The position numbers were made by a program, and so were the translations under genes. The notes under the pieces are model-generated. The model worked only from the letters and a program-made list of their open reading frames with translations, had not been told where the DNA came from and did not search any database. Positions 23,040-45,230 of a DNA stretch of 64,000 nucleotides are shown here, in pieces. The stretch covers positions 1-64,000 of the forward strand of contig VGXF01000008.1 in NCBI GenBank assembly GCA_016873435.1, in the 5' to 3' direction. How positions within the stretch are numbered: position 1 is the stretch's first letter; every line of letters begins with the position of its first letter. This DNA is from Nitrospira sp. (lineage in GTDB: Bacteria > Nitrospirota > Nitrospiria > Nitrospirales > Nitrospiraceae).

Positions 23040-24125
23040 TTGACGTTGCCCCTCCACACGTCGTCGCCCCTCATTCTCGCGCTCGAAACGTCCTGTGACG
23101 AAACGGCCGCCGCAGTTGTCACCGGCGAGGGCCGCGTCGCGGCCAGCGTGCTGTGCTCGCAGCACGACGTACATGCGCGCTATCAGGGCATCGTCCCTGA
23201 ACTCGCTGCGCGGCGGCACATCGAAACCGTCGAGACCATCGCGGCTGAGGCCATGACCCAAGCCGGCCTGGAGTGGTCCGATCTGGGGGCCATTGCTGTC
23301 ACGCAGGGGCCGGGGCTTGCTGGAGCGCTGCTGGTCGGCGTCAGCGTCGGCAAGGCGCTGGCCTACGCGCTGAAGCTGCCGTTAGTTGGTGTCAATCATC
23401 TGGAAGGACACATCGCCTCGGCCTGGCTCGATCAGCGGGATTTCCCACTGCCCTGCGTCGTCCTGGTTGTTTCGGGCGGGCACACCCATTTGTATCTGGT
23501 GTCGACGGATGACCGGCTCGAGCTGCTGGGAAAGACGCTGGACGATGCCGCGGGCGAAGCGTTCGACAAGGCCGCCGCCGTGCTCGGCCTCGGATTTCCG
23601 GGAGGGCCGGCCATCGACAAGCTGGCCCGAACCGGCACCCCCGACGCGGTTAAGTTCCCCCGACCGCTGTTGAGCGCGGGGAATCTGAATTTCAGTTTCA
23701 GTGGGCTGAAAACGGCGTTGCTGTATCACTGGCGTGATCTGAATGACGCGCAACGGTCACGGGATAGGGCGAATGTCGCCGCCAGCTATCAGGAAGCCAT
23801 TGTGGACGTGCTGGTTGAGAAAGCATTCCGGGCCGTACGCCGCATGCAAGTCAACTCGCTCGCCGTGGTAGGCGGCGTCTCGGCTAATTCGCGGTTACGC
23901 GTAAAATTGACGGCGCGGGCAGGGGAGGCCGGCATCCGGCTGGCCATTCCACCACTGACCTTGTGCACGGACAACGCCGCTATGATCGCACTCGCCGCGC
24001 AGCGCGCTTACCGTGCCGGCCGACTGGCAGCGTGGAACTTGGAGGCGGTGGCTGATCTGCCACTGCAGACCGCAGGGGAGGCACGTCTATCAGCCTCACG
24101 CATTCTGGCGGGAAGGCGAGGCTGA
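23040..24125 (+). CDS. tsaD: tRNA N6-adenosine threonylcarbamoyltransferase TsaD
   Basis: The 361-residue ASKHA-fold enzyme has LALETSCDETAAAVV near the N-terminus, the Kae1/Qri7/YgjD iron ligands in VNHLEGHIAS, VSGGHTHLY and later LCTDNAAMIA. It transfers threonylcarbamoyl to A37 of ANN-decoding tRNAs with TsaB/E, which are not seen here. The start is a TTG at 23040 with no strong Shine-Dalgarno sequence. It heads a run tsaD-hflX-nth-yicC-gmk-rpoZ-coaBC with spacing from overlap to 23 bases. Confidence 0.93.
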   Translation: MTLPLHTSSPLILALETSCDETAAAVVTGEGRVAASVLCSQHDVHARYQGIVPELAARRHIETVETIAAEAMTQAGLEWSDLGAIAVTQGPGLAGALLVGVSVGKALAYALKLPLVGVNHLEGHIASAWLDQRDFPLPCVVLVVSGGHTHLYLVSTDDRLELLGKTLDDAAGEAFDKAAAVLGLGFPGGPAIDKLARTGTPDAVKFPRPLLSAGNLNFSFSGLKTALLYHWRDLNDAQRSRDRANVAASYQEAIVDVLVEKAFRAVRRMQVNSLAVVGGVSANSRLRVKLTARAGEAGIRLAIPPLTLCTDNAAMIALAAQRAYRAGRLAAWNLEAVADLPLQTAGEARLSASRILAGRRG

Positions 24126-24126
24126 C

Positions 24127-25800
24127 ATCCCGACACTCCACGGCTATACGAACGGACTCAAGGCCGGCCAAGTACTTCGATTGGAGCATCTCTACCGACG
24201 GCGCGTGCCGGTGACGGCTGTCGTCAGCGCGGAACTGGCCCGATCCTGCACGGAACTCTCGCATGAGATTCACCGTGAAATCGCCCTGCTGATCAACCGA
24301 CGTGGGGCCGTCCAATACGTCTGCGTCGGACAAGGGCGGGACGTGGCGCTACCGGACCTCTCCCGGTTCCGGTCAGGTCCGCGCTCGTTGCGCGGTCTGC
24401 GATTGGTCCGGACCTATCTGCACAACGAGCCACTGACTAAGCAGGACCTGACCACCTTGGCGCTGCTCCGCCTGGATCTTGTGGCCTCGATTGTTGTGGG
24501 GGAACACGGACTGCCGGCCCAGATGGCTGTGGCGCATATCATACCGCCGAACCCGCGCACTCAACTCTATGTGGCGCTGCCGCCTAAACCCTTCCATGCC
24601 TGGGATCTGGATTGCCTGGAGTTGATCGAGTCCATCGAGGACGAACTGGCTAGGGCCGATGTCGGACGCGAAGTGTCGCATGCCTCCGATGCGGCCATCC
24701 TGATCAGTGCCTCGCAGGCCAGTCGGATTGTGCAGGAGGACCGGATGGAAGAGCTGGTCGACTTGGCGCGCTCGGACGATCTGGATGTGCGTGATACCGT
24801 CGTCCAGCGTTGTCAGACCATCAATCCAAAATATTTGATGGGAAGTGGCAAGCTCAAGGATGTTGTGATGACGGCGCTCCATAAGGGCGCAAACCTTCTG
24901 GTATTCGACCAGGATCTCACGCCGGCCCAAGCACGGGCGATCGCGGATGTCACCGACATGAAAGTCATTGATCGGACGCAATTAATCCTCGACATTTTCG
25001 CGCGGCGGGCGCACAGCCGGGAAGGGAAGATTCAGGTCGAACTGGCGCAGTTGCGTTATCTGCTGCCCAGACTGTCCGGGTCCACCGGGACGTCGTTGTC
25101 GAGGCTGGGGGGCGGCATCGGCGGCCGCGGGCCGGGTGAAACGAAACTGGAAACGGACCGCCGGCGCGTGCGCGACCGCATCGCGCATCTAGAAAAGGAG
25201 TTGCACGCCTTTGCGCGCCACCGGGACCAGCGTCGCGCGCGCCGGTTCCGGTACAAGATTCCCACGATTTCAATTGTCGGCTATACAAACGCGGGCAAAT
25301 CCACGCTGCTCAATGCGCTGACAGGTAGTCGGGTCGCGGCCGAGGACCGGCCGTTCGAAACGCTCGATACTGCTAGCCGCCGGCTACGGTTTCCGCATGA
25401 CCGCGATGTGATTGTCACGGACACAGTCGGGTTCATTCGCGATCTGCCGAAGGCCCTCGTGGGCGCTTTCAGGGCTACGCTCGAGGAATTGCGCGATGCC
25501 GACTTACTGCTCCATCTGATCGATGCCAGCAGTCCACGGATTGACGCGCAGATCGACGCGGTCGAAAAAATTCTACGCGAGCTCGGGCTGACGCATTTCC
25601 CGTCCATCCGGGTGCTTAATAAATGCGACAAGCTGTCGTCAGGAGAAATTGGCGGTCTGTGCCGGCGATATAGTGCCGTCGCCGTGTCCGCGTTCACGCC
25701 TGCCACGCTCGCGCCGCTGGTGGATGCTGTGTCAAATGCACTGGACGAACAGACGCGCCTGCCGCAGGTCGCATCCGCACTGGCCGTGCCTGGATTCTGA
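24127..25800 (+). CDS. hflX: GTPase HflX, probably starting at AUC
   Basis: This is a long-form HflX of about 557 residues. It has an N-terminal extension starting near GYTNGLKAGQVLRLEHLYRR, the HflX domain (MGSGKLKDVVMTAL), the Gly-rich linker GGGIGGRGPGETKLE, and a G domain with G1 GYTNAGKST, G3 DTVGF and G4 NKCDK. HflX splits stalled ribosomes. The conserved N-terminus begins right after the tsaD stop. No ATG, GTG or TTG is in frame there. An ATC at 24127, one base after that stop and six after GCGAGG, is the best-placed start. The nearest canonical upstream start (GTG 24013) would overlap tsaD by 113 bases and add unrelated sequence. Confidence 0.85.
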   Translation: MPTLHGYTNGLKAGQVLRLEHLYRRRVPVTAVVSAELARSCTELSHEIHREIALLINRRGAVQYVCVGQGRDVALPDLSRFRSGPRSLRGLRLVRTYLHNEPLTKQDLTTLALLRLDLVASIVVGEHGLPAQMAVAHIIPPNPRTQLYVALPPKPFHAWDLDCLELIESIEDELARADVGREVSHASDAAILISASQASRIVQEDRMEELVDLARSDDLDVRDTVVQRCQTINPKYLMGSGKLKDVVMTALHKGANLLVFDQDLTPAQARAIADVTDMKVIDRTQLILDIFARRAHSREGKIQVELAQLRYLLPRLSGSTGTSLSRLGGGIGGRGPGETKLETDRRRVRDRIAHLEKELHAFARHRDQRRARRFRYKIPTISIVGYTNAGKSTLLNALTGSRVAAEDRPFETLDTASRRLRFPHDRDVIVTDTVGFIRDLPKALVGAFRATLEELRDADLLLHLIDASSPRIDAQIDAVEKILRELGLTHFPSIRVLNKCDKLSSGEIGGLCRRYSAVAVSAFTPATLAPLVDAVSNALDEQTRLPQVASALAVPGF

Positions 25801-27988: not shown

Positions 27989-28351
27989 ATGATCGACGCA
28001 TTGTCCCTGTTACCCGAATACGACCCGGCGCGGACCGATTCGCGCCATCGGCTGGTCGTCGCCACGTCCCAGCGCGCCAAGCATCTCATGCAGGGCGCCA
28101 AGCCGATGGCCGCGCCCCGTTATGCGAAGGCGACCTCGGTGGCCCTCGACGAGATGCTCCACCACAACATCGAAGTTGTGATTGGGAAGGAGGCGCGCCA
28201 GGCAATCAAGGAAGTCAAGCGTGGGAAGGACAGCGAGATGGAGCGGATGGCCGCCACCGCCCTCCGGGAGGATGCTCGCGAGATCAAGAAAGAACTTAGC
28301 GTCTTTGTGGATGACTCCGTGAAGCCGTCGGTGAAGGACCGAGAGGAGTAG
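27989..28351 (+). CDS. rpoZ: RNA polymerase omega subunit
   Basis: The 120-residue product contains the omega core (SRHRLVVATSQRAKHLMQGA, then KATSVALDEMLHHNIEVV). It stabilises the beta' subunit during assembly. GAAAGGAG precedes ATG 27989. The location between gmk and coaBC supports the call. The C-terminal tail is Lys/Glu-rich and longer than in E. coli. Confidence 0.88.
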   Translation: MIDALSLLPEYDPARTDSRHRLVVATSQRAKHLMQGAKPMAAPRYAKATSVALDEMLHHNIEVVIGKEARQAIKEVKRGKDSEMERMAATALREDAREIKKELSVFVDDSVKPSVKDREE

Positions 28352-28355
28352 CGCC

Positions 28356-29588
28356 ATCGAGTCCATCGAATCTGAAGTCCCAGTCCGCCGTTTTTGCGGG
28401 AAGCGTATTCTGCTTGGCGTCAGCGGAAGCATCGCTGCCTACAAGGCAGTTGAACTGCTGCGCGCGCTGACGCGAGAAGGCGCCGACGTCCACGTGGCTA
28501 TGACTGAGTCGGCCACGAAGTTCGTAACTCCGCTGACGTTTGAAGTCCTCTCGAAGCATTCCGTCGCTAGGGGACTTTATGCGACCCATCAGGAAATGCT
28601 GCACCTGACATTGCCCGAGGAGGCGGATGCCTTTCTCATTGCGCCCGCTACAGCTAACACGCTAGCCAAATGCGCGCTCGGCTTGGCCGACGATCTGCTA
28701 AGCACTATGGTCCTGGCAGCTTCTTGCCCGCTGATTATTGCGCCGGCCATGGATGGTGGTATGTGGGACCATCCGACAGTGCAGGAACATGTGGCGCTGC
28801 TGCGGCAACGCGGCGTGACGGTGCTGGATCCCGTTGAGGGACCGCTGGCATCAGGGAAAATTGGCACGGGTCGCCTGACGGATGCCGTGACGATGCTAGC
28901 CGCTCTTGAAGCCCGGCTGAACCTTCGGCGTGATTTCGTCGGCCAGCGTATTCTTGTGTCTGCCGGACCAACGCAGGAGGCCATCGATCCGGTCCGATTC
29001 ATTTCCAACCGGTCCTCTGGGAAAATGGGCTATGCAGTTGCCGCAGCGGCGGCCGAGCGGGGCGCCTCCGTCGTGCTGGTCAGTGGTCCTACAGCTCTGT
29101 TGCCTCCGGCCGGCGTCGAATGTGTCCGCGTTGAAACGGCGGACGAAATGAACAAGGCCCTGCAAATTCGTTTCAACTGGTCCACGTTGGTCGTCATGGC
29201 GGCGGCCGTGGCCGACTACCGGCCCGTGGAGCGCTTCGGACGCAAGATCAAGAAGGGCACCGCCGCACGCGCACTTCCTCTAACGCCCACCGACGACATC
29301 CTCGACGGTCTCTCGAAGCGCCGGACTCATCAAATCCTGGTGGGGTTTGCGGCCGAGACCGACGATCTGGTCGGCCAGGCCAAGGACAAGCTGCGCCGGA
29401 AGGGGCTGGACCTGATTGTCGCCAACGACGTGACGCGCGCGGGGGCCGGATTTGGCTCCGATTCCAATGCGGCCATCATACTAGACCGGGCAGGACATGA
29501 AACCCGGCTCGCACTAATGCCCAAGCGAGAGATGGCGGACCGCATTCTGGACGCCGTTCTGTCCCTGCCGCACCGGCCTCGTTCCTGA
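28356..29588 (+). CDS. coaBC: bifunctional CoaBC, probably starting at AUC
   Basis: The frame encodes about 410 residues. The CoaC flavoprotein half begins with RILLGVSGSIAAYKAVELLR and includes APAMDGGMW. The CoaB half starts with ILVSAGPTQEAIDPVRFISN and includes VVMAAAVADYRP. Together they make 4'-phosphopantetheine from 4'-phosphopantothenate and cysteine. The essential N-terminal GSIAAYK segment lies upstream of the first ATG/GTG/TTG in frame (GTG 28494). The only suitable start is ATC 28356, eight bases after AGGAG and four after the rpoZ stop. Initiation at AUC, or a sequence error, is therefore implied. Confidence 0.85.
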   Translation: MESIESEVPVRRFCGKRILLGVSGSIAAYKAVELLRALTREGADVHVAMTESATKFVTPLTFEVLSKHSVARGLYATHQEMLHLTLPEEADAFLIAPATANTLAKCALGLADDLLSTMVLAASCPLIIAPAMDGGMWDHPTVQEHVALLRQRGVTVLDPVEGPLASGKIGTGRLTDAVTMLAALEARLNLRRDFVGQRILVSAGPTQEAIDPVRFISNRSSGKMGYAVAAAAAERGASVVLVSGPTALLPPAGVECVRVETADEMNKALQIRFNWSTLVVMAAAVADYRPVERFGRKIKKGTAARALPLTPTDDILDGLSKRRTHQILVGFAAETDDLVGQAKDKLRRKGLDLIVANDVTRAGAGFGSDSNAAIILDRAGHETRLALMPKREMADRILDAVLSLPHRPRS

Positions 29589-42151: not shown

Positions 42152-43279
42152 ATGGGACACGCGTACACACCAGGTTTGACCGTGACCGAACGCACCACCG
42201 TGCGTAAGCGCCGTCTCCTTCCGATTCCCGGCACAGTGGCAGTGACAGCAGGCGACCGCGTGAAGCCTGATTCCGTTGTGGCCCATGCGGAACTGCCTGG
42301 CAAAGTCCACTCGATCAATGTTGCGAATCTGTTGGGCGCGGCGCCCGATGAAGTTCCCGAGTATATGCACCACAAACAAGGTGAGGTGGTCCAAAAAAAT
42401 GACGTCATTGCCGAAAACAAGCCCTTCATCAAATTGCTCAAAACTGTAGTACGATCACCCGTGCAGGGCACGGTGGAGGCTGTCTCCACCGTTACGGGGC
42501 AGGTGTTACTGCGCGAACCGCCGAGACGGCTCGAACTGCTGGCTTACGTTGAGGGACACGTAACGGATGTGCTGCCGCAGCATGGCATCATCGTTGAAAC
42601 GGACTGCACCCTGGTCCAAGGCATCTTTGGTGTAGGTGGGGAAACCTGGGGTGAACTCACGATGGCAGTCCAATCTCCGGACGAGTTGCTGACCGCTGAC
42701 CATCTGATGCCTGCCATGGCCGGTCAAATTGTAGTTGGCGGTTCTTTTGTCACTGCTGATACCTTGGGTAAAGCGAAAGCTCTGGGCGTGGCAGCTCTTG
42801 TCGTCGGCGGTATGCATGACAAAGATTTGCGCACGCTCCTGCGCTATGATCTCGGTGTGGCCATTACCGGAACGGAGCAAATCGGCTTTACGTTAATTCT
42901 CACGGAAGGGTTCGGGACGATCCCGATGGCCGCCAAAACCTTTGCGTTGCTGTCGAAACATGCAGGTCAGAATGCGTCGGTATCGGGTGCAACGCAGATT
43001 CGGGCGGGAGTGATCCGCCCGGAACTCATCATTCCCGCATCGCAGCAGTCTGCCGCAGCCAGCGCGAGACCGAAAGCGGAGCGGGAGGGTATTGTAGTCG
43101 GCGATCAGGTCCGAGTCATCCGCGATCCCCTCTTCGGACGTATTGGTACGGTTAGCGATCTGCCACCTGACTTGCGCCAAATTGAGACCGAAAGCCGCGT
43201 CCGCGTGCTGGAAGTGACCTTTGCTGATAACACCCGCGCGGTCATTCCGCGCGCTAACGTGGAAATTATTGAAGGATGA
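42152..43279 (+). CDS. barrel/hammerhead and KOW-motif protein of unknown function
   Basis: The 375-residue soluble-looking protein begins with a biotinyl/RnfC-like beta-barrel region (RRLLPIPGTVAVTAGDRVKP, HAELPGKVHSINV; TVVRSPVQGTVEAVS, residues about 15-140). An alpha/beta middle follows (AMAGQIVVGGSFVTADTLGK, LGVAALVVGGM). A C-terminal KOW-like module comes last (VVGDQVRVIRDPLFGRIGTV). The mixture resembles barrel-sandwich adaptor proteins such as RnfC or NqrA N-termini, but lacks Fe-S or quinone motifs. It starts 64 bases after the MutL stop and overlaps the next gene by four bases. Function unknown. Confidence 0.75.
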   Translation: MGHAYTPGLTVTERTTVRKRRLLPIPGTVAVTAGDRVKPDSVVAHAELPGKVHSINVANLLGAAPDEVPEYMHHKQGEVVQKNDVIAENKPFIKLLKTVVRSPVQGTVEAVSTVTGQVLLREPPRRLELLAYVEGHVTDVLPQHGIIVETDCTLVQGIFGVGGETWGELTMAVQSPDELLTADHLMPAMAGQIVVGGSFVTADTLGKAKALGVAALVVGGMHDKDLRTLLRYDLGVAITGTEQIGFTLILTEGFGTIPMAAKTFALLSKHAGQNASVSGATQIRAGVIRPELIIPASQQSAAASARPKAEREGIVVGDQVRVIRDPLFGRIGTVSDLPPDLRQIETESRVRVLEVTFADNTRAVIPRANVEIIEG

Positions 43280-44583
43280 CAACTGCACCAAAGGCCGTTG
43301 CGTGTAAAAGCATGAGCCGACGAGGTCGGTTCCGATCACTACGACGTTGTGGCTCAACTTCAGCAGTCATGCTTCAAACGGTACTCGTGCTCGGATGCCT
43401 ACTTTTGCCACGACTCGCGCATGCGGATGACCTGGCCTCCCCACAAAATGTTCGTGTCTTTGACACGCCAAATGATGGGGGGGGCAGTCTCACGGTTGTC
43501 TGGGATAAGGCGGCCGGCGAGACCAAGGACGGGCGTTATCAGGTACTGCTCCATCAGCCAAGTGCCGCTGACCCCAAAGTCATCGCTGAGTTTGCAGCCA
43601 ACTCGCGTTATGTCAAAGATGCCAAAATTCCCTGGTGGACCCGATCCGTGCCAAACACTAATCATTTTATTACAATCAGAACAGGCAAGGGCCTTGAACT
43701 GAAAGACGGCACATTGTATGGCGTGACGGTCGTCGCTGTGTCGGGTGAGCACAGGGCGCCCGCCGCCACTGTGCAGGCGACGCCGGAGCCCAACTGGTTC
43801 AATTGGAACCAGATTAACAATTTGGCCATTGTTATTATTTTCGTATTGATTGTCTTCGGTTCGATTCACGTCGCTAAAACGAAGGATATTTTTCTCCGTC
43901 GTATTGCCGGATTAGATGCTGTCGATGAAGCTATCGGCCGTGCCACTGAATTGGGTAAGCCCATTCTCTATCTGACCGGCGCCGGTGACATGAGCGAGCC
44001 ATCCACCGTGGCGGCAGCGGTGATTCTTGGACGGGTGGCCAAACGGGTAGCCGCCTACGAAACCGACCTCTTGGTACCGCACCGCGATCCCATCGTCATG
44101 GCCGTGTGCCAGGAAATCACCAAGCAGTCATATCTCGAAGCGGGGAAACCAGATGTCTTTAAAGAGGACTCCAACTTCTTTATTACGACCGACCAGTTTA
44201 GTTATACCGCGGCAGTAGACGGCATCATGTTGCGCAAAAAGCCCGCGGCGAACTTTTTTATGGGCTCCTACTTTGCCGAGTCACTACTGCTAACCGAAAC
44301 CGGGGCGAGCACCGGGGCGATCCAGATCGCGGGCACCGACTCAGACCATCAATTGCCGTTTTTCGTAACGACCTGTGATTACACACTGATCGGGGAGGAG
44401 CTCTACGCCGCCAGCGCCTATCTCTCACGCGAGCCGATCCAGCTTGGAACCCTCCGCGGGCAAGATATTGGCAAGGCCTGCATCCTAGGCACCATCGCTG
44501 TGGGTACTGCGGTTGCGACCGTTGCCGTTCTGTTCGGTGTGGACTTGTCGCCGATCATCGACCTCATGCGAGATTTAAAATGA
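43276..44583 (+). CDS. FN3-like membrane protein (DUF6754-type)
   Basis: The 435-residue product has an N-terminal signal/anchor (about 32-50, LQTVLVLGCLLLPRLAHA) and a fibronectin type III-like extracytoplasmic domain (SPQNVRVFDTPNDGGGSLTV). A transmembrane helix follows at about 177-197 (LAIVIIFVLIVFGSIHVA), then a soluble alpha/beta domain (LGKPILYLTGAGDMSEPSTV, LTETGASTGAIQIAGTDSDH). A C-terminal helix lies at about 405-425. I recall this layout under the name DUF6754, of unknown function. It overlaps both neighbours by four bases, so it is firmly part of the cluster. Confidence 0.75.
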   Translation: MTTAPKAVACKSMSRRGRFRSLRRCGSTSAVMLQTVLVLGCLLLPRLAHADDLASPQNVRVFDTPNDGGGSLTVVWDKAAGETKDGRYQVLLHQPSAADPKVIAEFAANSRYVKDAKIPWWTRSVPNTNHFITIRTGKGLELKDGTLYGVTVVAVSGEHRAPAATVQATPEPNWFNWNQINNLAIVIIFVLIVFGSIHVAKTKDIFLRRIAGLDAVDEAIGRATELGKPILYLTGAGDMSEPSTVAAAVILGRVAKRVAAYETDLLVPHRDPIVMAVCQEITKQSYLEAGKPDVFKEDSNFFITTDQFSYTAAVDGIMLRKKPAANFFMGSYFAESLLLTETGASTGAIQIAGTDSDHQLPFFVTTCDYTLIGEELYAASAYLSREPIQLGTLRGQDIGKACILGTIAVGTAVATVAVLFGVDLSPIIDLMRDLK

Positions 44584-45230
44584 CTTTTCTACGCCGCCAA
44601 CTGCCGCTGTTTATTACCTTCGCAACCGGTATTCTCTTTGCTGCGCAGTACTATGTGCCGCATCCGGACTCCGAGCTCATGCTGACAACCACGACGAAGT
44701 GGCTGCAGATCATCGGCGGATTCGCGCTGGTGCTAGGCGTGACGAGTCTGTTCCACCTCCATGCCGTGAAAATCCGTCGCCAGGAAGCGGGCTGGGGCTA
44801 CAGCTTTGTGCTCTATGCCGGAATGCTTGGGACGATCGTCATCGGACTCTGGCACAACGGCAAAGAAACGACGGAGGGTGTTACCACTGCCTTCGGCTGG
44901 ATCTACACCTACATGATGGTGCCGCTCCAGGGAACGATGTTCGCGATTCTTGCGTTTTTCATTGCCTCCGCTGCGTATCGTTCGTTCCGTGCGCGCAGCC
45001 GTGAGGCCGCTGTGCTCTTAATCGCCGCTGTGATCGTGATGATGGGTCGCGTCCCGCTCGGCGAGCATCTGATTCCTTTAAGTGGCGACGTGACACAGTG
45101 GATTCTCAACGTACTAAACGCTGCGGTCCGCCGTGCCATCTTGATCGGCATTAGTCTTGGCGCGATCGCCCTGTCACTGAAAATTATCTTTGGAGTTGAG
45201 CGGGCCTACCTGGGTGGAGGCAAAGAGTAA
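44580..45230 (+). CDS. six-helix membrane protein of the MutL-MEMO cluster
   Basis: The 216-residue protein has about six predicted transmembrane helices (around residues 8-26, 38-58, 73-95, 107-130, 138-157 and 180-205). Charged loops include KIRRQEAGW and RSFRARSREA. It has no motif I recognise. It is coupled to the FN3-membrane protein by a four-base overlap and probably assembles with it. Confidence 0.75.
   Translation: MTFLRRQLPLFITFATGILFAAQYYVPHPDSELMLTTTTKWLQIIGGFALVLGVTSLFHLHAVKIRRQEAGWGYSFVLYAGMLGTIVIGLWHNGKETTEGVTTAFGWIYTYMMVPLQGTMFAILAFFIASAAYRSFRARSREAAVLLIAAVIVMMGRVPLGEHLIPLSGDVTQWILNVLNAAVRRAILIGISLGAIALSLKIIFGVERAYLGGGKE

Follow-up and report, generated by a model that had tools for sequence, protein, structure and literature searches.

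Candidate AUU/AUC start codons of hflX, rsfS and infC in Nitrospirota, and a proposed AUC start of coaBC in a single Nitrospira genome

The coaBC gene and its proposed start

The gene coaBC (phosphopantothenoylcysteine decarboxylase / phosphopantothenate-cysteine ligase) lies on the forward strand of a 64,000-nt stretch of Nitrospira sp. DNA, the whole of which we analyzed and refer to as the window. From its proposed start, ATC 28356-28358, it extends to a TGA stop at 29586-29588 (28356-29588 in all). The gene 5' of it is rpoZ (omega subunit; forward strand, 27989-28351), named by its position and by the model that wrote an earlier note on this DNA. The coaBC ATC begins 4 nt after the rpoZ stop (TAG, 28349-28351), and the end of rpoZ contains a Shine-Dalgarno (SD)-like AGGAG (28344-28348) with a 7-nt spacer to ATC 28356; these coordinates bear out the earlier note, which had placed the ATC near AGGAG and four nucleotides past the rpoZ stop. 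The coaBC frame is open from 28335, directly after the in-frame TGA 28332-28334, and between that stop and GTG 28494 it contains no ATG, GTG or TTG. From 28352 to 28493, no ATG or GTG is found in any frame of the forward strand, and the only TTGs there (28394, 28414 and 28450) are all out of the coaBC frame. A second ATC in coaBC (28365) stands 16 nt from AGGAG and is placed worse than ATC 28356.

It had also been claimed that the CoaC core, GVSGSIAAYK, lies 5' of the first canonical in-frame codon, GTG 28494-28496, and on this the sequence and the Pfam profile agree. Started at AUC, the protein carries both Pfam domains (PF02441 and PF04127), with the Flavoprotein match beginning at residue 16, scores 443.4 bits against NCBIfam TIGR00521 (cut-off 219.7), and has as its best PDB match 6tgv, itself a CoaBC (E 2e-84). 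The N-terminal flavoprotein segment with GVSGSIAAYK is complete only if translation starts at or near 28356; with GTG 28494 as the start, the motif is dropped, the Flavoprotein match begins at profile position 33, so that positions 1-32 are lost, and the truncated form scores 386 bits against TIGR00521. Compared with each of five relatives, the segment 5' of the GTG shows 26-32 identities over 34-36 aligned residues. On the grounds of this identity, the coverage of the Flavoprotein profile and the TIGR00521 scores, the stretch before GTG 28494 is coding. A start at GTG 28494 has in its favor that this is the first canonical codon, but it would turn into a dead remnant a stretch that is this similar to relatives and whose codon usage scores as coding, at the cost of those 32 profile positions; we consider it very improbable. 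When the window and a further 300 kb of its genome (fifteen 20-kb stretches; 333 genes called in all) were screened by codon usage, with training on the window's genes other than coaBC, coaBC was the top one of 6 flags. Four flags were discounted: L431, L433, window 374 and L420, a DUF4321 frame whose domain is preceded by an ATG. This screen is insensitive, as hflX went unflagged because a GTG lies 5' of its start.

To place the coaBC start among relatives, we scored as canonical any gene with an ATG, GTG or TTG between codons -24 and -5 relative to the GVSG motif. We searched 118 genomes of the same order and read the start in 95 of them; the 23 genomes left out (no match, partial, or not fetched) include the three genomes of family f4 that belong to the hflX set described below. 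A canonical start was found in 94 of the 95, the sole failure being the window's own genome. The starts of the relatives fall at about the same place and in the same frame, contrary to the case that the earlier note had named as refuting it, namely relatives with an upstream start and a change of frame. Because the relatives' genes are canonical there, the AUC is private to this assembly, and may be either a recent mutation that is tolerated or an error in the consensus; it is known from one assembly, and the genomes searched include no second member of the genus. The lack of a canonical codon before GTG 28494 thus bears out the observation in the earlier note, while for coaBC the suggestion of tolerated AUC initiation is drawn from this one assembly. 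We regard it as moderately probable that the start is truly AUC.

Two further explanations bear on the same evidence. The AUC might stem from a faulty consensus or assembly, or from a minority variant, with the living organism having an ordinary start codon, which we hold to be possible but doubtful. The canonical start in 94/95 genomes, the single base by which AUC differs from AUG and the reliance on a single assembly in 33 contigs all fit such an error; however, the assembly is 98.5% complete and 0.77% contaminated, and AUC starts appear to be used elsewhere in the lineage (hflX, infC and rsfS, see below). In addition, 20 pairs of window frames that share one relative frame yielded by eye no convincing split gene, the pairs being shadow frames or, in one case (43273-45227), due to a fusion in the relative, and this lack speaks mildly against a poor assembly. 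Alternatively, rpoZ and coaBC could be fused by +1 frameshifting of ribosomes that reach the end of rpoZ, given that coaBC is in the +1 frame of rpoZ and is open from 28335. This we judge to be extremely improbable, as the gene has its own canonical start near here in 94 other genomes, and a slippery site of the prfB type was not seen at the rpoZ stop.

Start codons of hflX in the window, the order and beyond

The earlier note referred to a second AUC case in the window without naming the gene. By our identification, the best match is the long form of hflX (forward strand, 24127-25800), with its start at ATC 24127-24129, as placed by an alignment of 104 genomes, and its stop at TGA 25798-25800. 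The protein scores 437.5 bits against NCBIfam TIGR03156 (cut-off 216.75) and carries the Pfam domains PF13167, PF16360 and PF01926; ATC 24127 is the first codon of its conserved N-terminus, I-P-T-x-x-G-x-x-x-G-L-K. A 4-nt SD-like match, GAGG (24118-24121), weaker than that of most relatives, lies 5 nt before the ATC, with AAGG (24113-24116) just 5' of it; hflX (5 nt) and coaBC (7 nt) thus both have an SD-like match at 5-10 nt. One nucleotide 5' of the hflX start is the TGA stop (24123-24125) of the upstream gene, presumably tsaD, judging by its ALETSC motif. We took 59 window frames as genes based on their match to syntenic stretches of five relatives (a few of them look like shadow frames), and among these only coaBC and hflX were, by eye, convincingly without a canonical start at the conserved N-terminus. 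No Rfam family reached its gathering score in the window.

The tsaD frame has no ATG at its own conserved N-terminus (23040-23061). Its nearest codons are TTG 23040 and 23046, 7 and 5 codons before SSPLILALETSC, and in the relative frame that matches best, GTG stands 9 and 19 codons before SSPLILALETSC.

All 118 genomes searched contained a match to hflX, and the full N-terminus was obtained from 104 of them, spanning 31 genera (for the other 14 no full N-terminus was fetched). In the one alignment column that is homologous to ATC 24127, the codon is ATT in 85 genomes, ATC in 16, ATG in 2 and TTG in 1; ATT or ATC is thus found in 101/104, and the three exceptions in the order have ATG or TTG at the very same codon. 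In one test applied alike to several genes, hflX fails in 71/104 genomes, versus 94/95 passes for coaBC. The same test found canonical starts for rpoZ in 95/95 genomes, for gmk in 94/95 and for yicC in 97/98, the single missing rows of gmk and yicC being unaligned. Amino-acid conservation of HflX begins at this homologous codon and is lost 5' of it, apart from the purine-rich SD. The residue entropy is 0.22 bits at the start codon versus 2.2-3.9 bits at the twelve positions upstream. Among the 101 genes with ATT or ATC there (codons that we group with ATA as AUH), 85 have ATT where 38 would be expected from each gene's own ATT:ATC use, an excess that was reached in 0 of 20,000 simulations (a statistic that ignores relatedness); such a preference would not be expected of a codon that simply encodes isoleucine. 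An SD match of at least 5 nt is present in 78/104 genomes (75%) versus 21% in shuffles, the window's own gene having 4 nt, while matches of at least 4 nt at 5-10 nt occur in 101/104, 4-nt matches being found in 63% of shuffles as well.

HflX could instead be translated from an ATG, GTG or TTG inside tsaD, with an unconserved N-terminal tail. By a looser rule, some such codon lies within 25 codons 5' of the core in 33/104 genomes, in the unconserved part, and in the window the frame is open from GTG 24013 through to the core. In 66/104 genomes, however, no ATG, GTG or TTG at all occurs from the in-frame stop up to the GLK motif. The lack of residue conservation 5' of the AUH codon, the position of the SD before the ATT or ATC and the excess of ATT over internal isoleucine codons speak against it as well, making an upstream start very unlikely. 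Some genomes (G065, G068, G057 and others, from genera g6, g9 and g18) have a second hflX-like frame, with about 45% identity from about residue 250 of the query, which stands beside the long AUH-start copy.

Outside the order, we read 22 other Nitrospirota loci, hand-picked to span families from outside the order or via named records (20 of them from 245 genomes of the phylum): 19 have AUH alone near the site, 2 have a canonical codon and 1 has neither. For the Desulfobacterota, a phylum assigned from the title of a Desulfobulbus record, the set consists of G341 and the best 30 loci from a search of 79 genomes. Here, AUH alone was found in 22 of 31 loci, AUH together with a nearby canonical codon (codons -14 to -4) in 4, a canonical codon in 4 and neither in 1. 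In the Bacillota (the phylum of a Desulfosporosinus record), 30 loci of 81 genomes included many short HflX proteins; none of the six long-form loci used has AUH, and all have ATG or GTG near the site. An ATT-started hflX is present in two genomes named 'Nitrospirae bacterium NC_groundwater' (L385 and L386), and in L373 the stop codon TAA directly abuts the ATT of hflX. At two long-form loci, L363 and L285, the homologous site is neither canonical nor AUH. A FastTree phylogeny of HflX (163 rows) requires 8 changes between AUH and canonical starts; given its long branches and the 28 rows that are under half filled, it indicates only that canonical starts are scattered.

rsfS, infC and the wider genome

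A search of the genome for other conserved genes lacking AUG, GUG and UUG, which the earlier note had called for, added hflX and rsfS to coaBC: comparison of 180 of the genome's own genes (444 kb) with relatives flagged 17, of which these three were judged to stand. The other flags were false by eye, their cores already having an ATG or GTG, or the frames being shadows of overlapping genes or antisense. In this comparison infC went unflagged, since a GTG 5 codons downstream satisfies the test.

The rsfS gene had surfaced through a flag of the codon-usage screen in the window's genome. Its product (L422) scores 117 bits against TIGR00090 (cut-off 56.9) and matches Pfam PF02410, and its ATC start (G000, C1, 80503) lies 6 nt after AGGAGG. 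We read 30 loci of the window's family and 20 of other families, out of 111 matching genomes. At the homologous codon, as anchored by the alignment, ATC is found in 27/30 family loci and GTG in 3/30; 20/30 have no canonical codon within 30 codons 5' of the KK motif, and AGGAGG occurs within 18 nt upstream in 14/30. The 20 loci of other families have, by eye, AUH in 9 cases, a canonical codon in 8 and possibly CTG in 3, with six of the nine AUH loci also having a canonical codon further downstream. The loci L482-L484 (family f4, genus g25) may use CTG as the start of rsfS: all three share a CTG followed by AAT CCT AGA TCC and have no canonical codon nearby. A TATATAAT-like stretch before rsfS was considered as a promoter, and rsfS as uncoupled from its neighbor; both ideas were dropped, since the stretch lies within the end of the upstream frame.

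For infC, 30 loci of 60 matching genomes were read. All 22 loci of the window's family have their start at ATC after AGGTG. By eye, the N-R/H-E-I-R core is preceded by no canonical codon in 9 of them, while 12 offer a GTG or TTG a few codons 3' of the ATC, a possible alternative start, and one has canonical codons only far upstream. In family f3, infC has ATG in 7/8 loci, with one unread. Given this ATG, the GTG in 3/30 rsfS loci and the mixed rsfS starts in other families, the AUH starts of infC, hflX and rsfS do not, by these comparisons, always travel together. What sets infC-type genes apart, i.e., genes with a near-cognate start under the control of IF3, is a conserved AUH at the homologous start, mostly without a canonical alternative. 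We find this pattern in hflX, rsfS and infC; coaBC, canonical in 94/95 genomes, lacks the conservation. The hibernation factor gene hpf, read in 30 of the 55 matching genomes at a single locus per genome (second copies left out), is canonical at 30/30 loci, one of which (L503) is mis-anchored.

The initiator tRNA, suggested earlier as a possible site of unusual residues, turned out to be ordinary by eye in its CAU anticodon and in the GGG/CCC pairs of its anticodon stem, with nothing that would read AUC. The first acceptor pair of this tRNA (L304) is U1-A72; the E. coli initiator tRNA has a C1-A72 mismatch.

Operon position and possible control by IF3

All four AUH starts of the window's genome (hflX, coaBC, rsfS and infC) lie close to where an upstream frame ends. 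That of rsfS falls within the final 17 nt of a frame with a match to a cytidylyltransferase family, as would be expected of nadD; in most family loci the rsfS start overlaps the 3' end of an upstream frame of 229-270 aa, and in the others it lies 10-11 nt past it. The infC start of the window's genome follows a 487-aa frame by 20 nt. For hflX, the distance from the upstream stop ranges from -128 to +25 nt in the 68/104 genomes in which one was located, with AUU or AUC kept throughout. Coupled reinitiation may help AUH starts; since the hflX codon is retained over so wide a range of distances, it calls for more than coupling.

The alignments establish the start sites, their conservation and the absence of alternative starts. 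From these we infer AUC/AUU initiation in these cells, control by IF3, low output and, for coaBC, a correctly called base. We think it fairly probable that a few genes of this lineage start at AUC or AUU, with hflX, rsfS and infC doing so through long-standing selection and coaBC as a private addition. The suggestion that AUC initiation is tolerated or used in the lineage is well supported, by comparison, through the conserved AUC/AUU codons of hflX, infC and rsfS, while coaBC itself, from which the suggestion arose, is read from a single assembly. AUC and AUU pair with the initiator anticodon CAU at two of three positions. In the mechanism that we propose, IF3 would reject such starts, keeping output low, and output would rise when free IF3 is short. 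The three products all hold the two halves of the ribosome separate, IF3 on the 30S subunit, RsfS on the 50S subunit and HflX by splitting 70S ribosomes, so a single brake could adjust infC, hflX and rsfS together. Translation of coaBC would most likely begin at AUC 28356, aided by the AGGAG 7 nt away and by ribosomes terminating on rpoZ 4 nt before it, with little enzyme made.

The sources cited here describe several elements of this scheme. The AUU/AUC start of infC in E. coli and the GTC start of Streptomyces sigR are described as repressed by IF3, forming a regulatory switch (PMC5472188), and in a reconstituted system the full-length fraction from AUU with the CAU anticodon drops as IF3 rises (PMC10158994; AUU, not AUC). 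In S. aureus, reporter output from AUU and AUA starts was about 10% of that from AUG, in poor medium (PMC13009471). IF3 blocks re-association of the subunits and HflX splits 70S ribosomes (PMC9067457), and RsfS blocks the joining of 50S and 30S (PMC10917681). According to PMC5472188, very few genes under start-codon control by IF3 have been characterized.

Known systems offer partial parallels. Autoregulation of infC in E. coli and Streptomyces (PMC5472188) likewise combines a near-cognate start, an SD and an anti-association factor, whereas hflX and rsfS would be targets of IF3 other than its own gene. The sigR GTC of Streptomyces is, like the hflX codon, a conserved non-canonical start outside infC, with a strong ribosome-binding site, but concerns one genus, a sigma factor and GTC, while hflX has AUU, AUC or AUA in two phyla (PMC5472188). 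The cvfC1 (AUU) and ccpN (AUA) genes of S. aureus have conserved AUH starts with an SD, as here, but are unrelated genes of Staphylococcus/Bacillus (PMC13009471). The AUU of lepA in Borrelia burgdorferi and B. licheniformis was, like ours, inferred by comparison and also belongs to a ribosome-associated GTPase, but it covers two species, and conservation is not claimed for it (PMC1780047). The UUG start of E. coli rsfS is a minor codon, as here, but one that is among the three accepted starts (PMC10917681). In the literature that we searched, which leaves most subscription journals outside its coverage, hflX was not found paired with AUU or another non-canonical start.

The weak starts of hflX and rsfS could also do no more than limit expression, or be tolerated through termination-reinitiation coupling, without any link to the level of IF3. 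We consider this quite possible, if somewhat short of probable. It is consistent with hflX and coaBC starting 1 and 4 nt past a stop codon, with rsfS and infC starting at or near the end of an upstream frame, and with the AUU of E. coli pcnB, which has been described as simply lowering expression (PMC1780047). However, the hflX codon stays constant over distances of -128 to +25 nt from the stop, the set consists of infC and two functional partners and not of random genes, and IF3 is a known discriminator against such codons (PMC5472188).

Going further, we put forward tentatively, and as a rather unlikely proposal, that the Nitrospirota (for hflX also the Desulfobacterota) have an IF3-sensing regulon of infC, hflX and rsfS, which coaBC has newly entered in the window's species. 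A fall in free IF3 would then raise infC, hflX and rsfS together and so restore the pool of free subunits. Where gene callers accept only ATG, GTG and TTG, the N-termini of hflX and rsfS are likely mis-annotated. If these starts are controlled by IF3, the conserved AUH of hflX in two phyla, together with rsfS and infC in one family, would form a regulon with a clear logic; and the entry of coaBC, if true, would place this gene under IF3-sensing control and tie coenzyme A synthesis to ribosome status.
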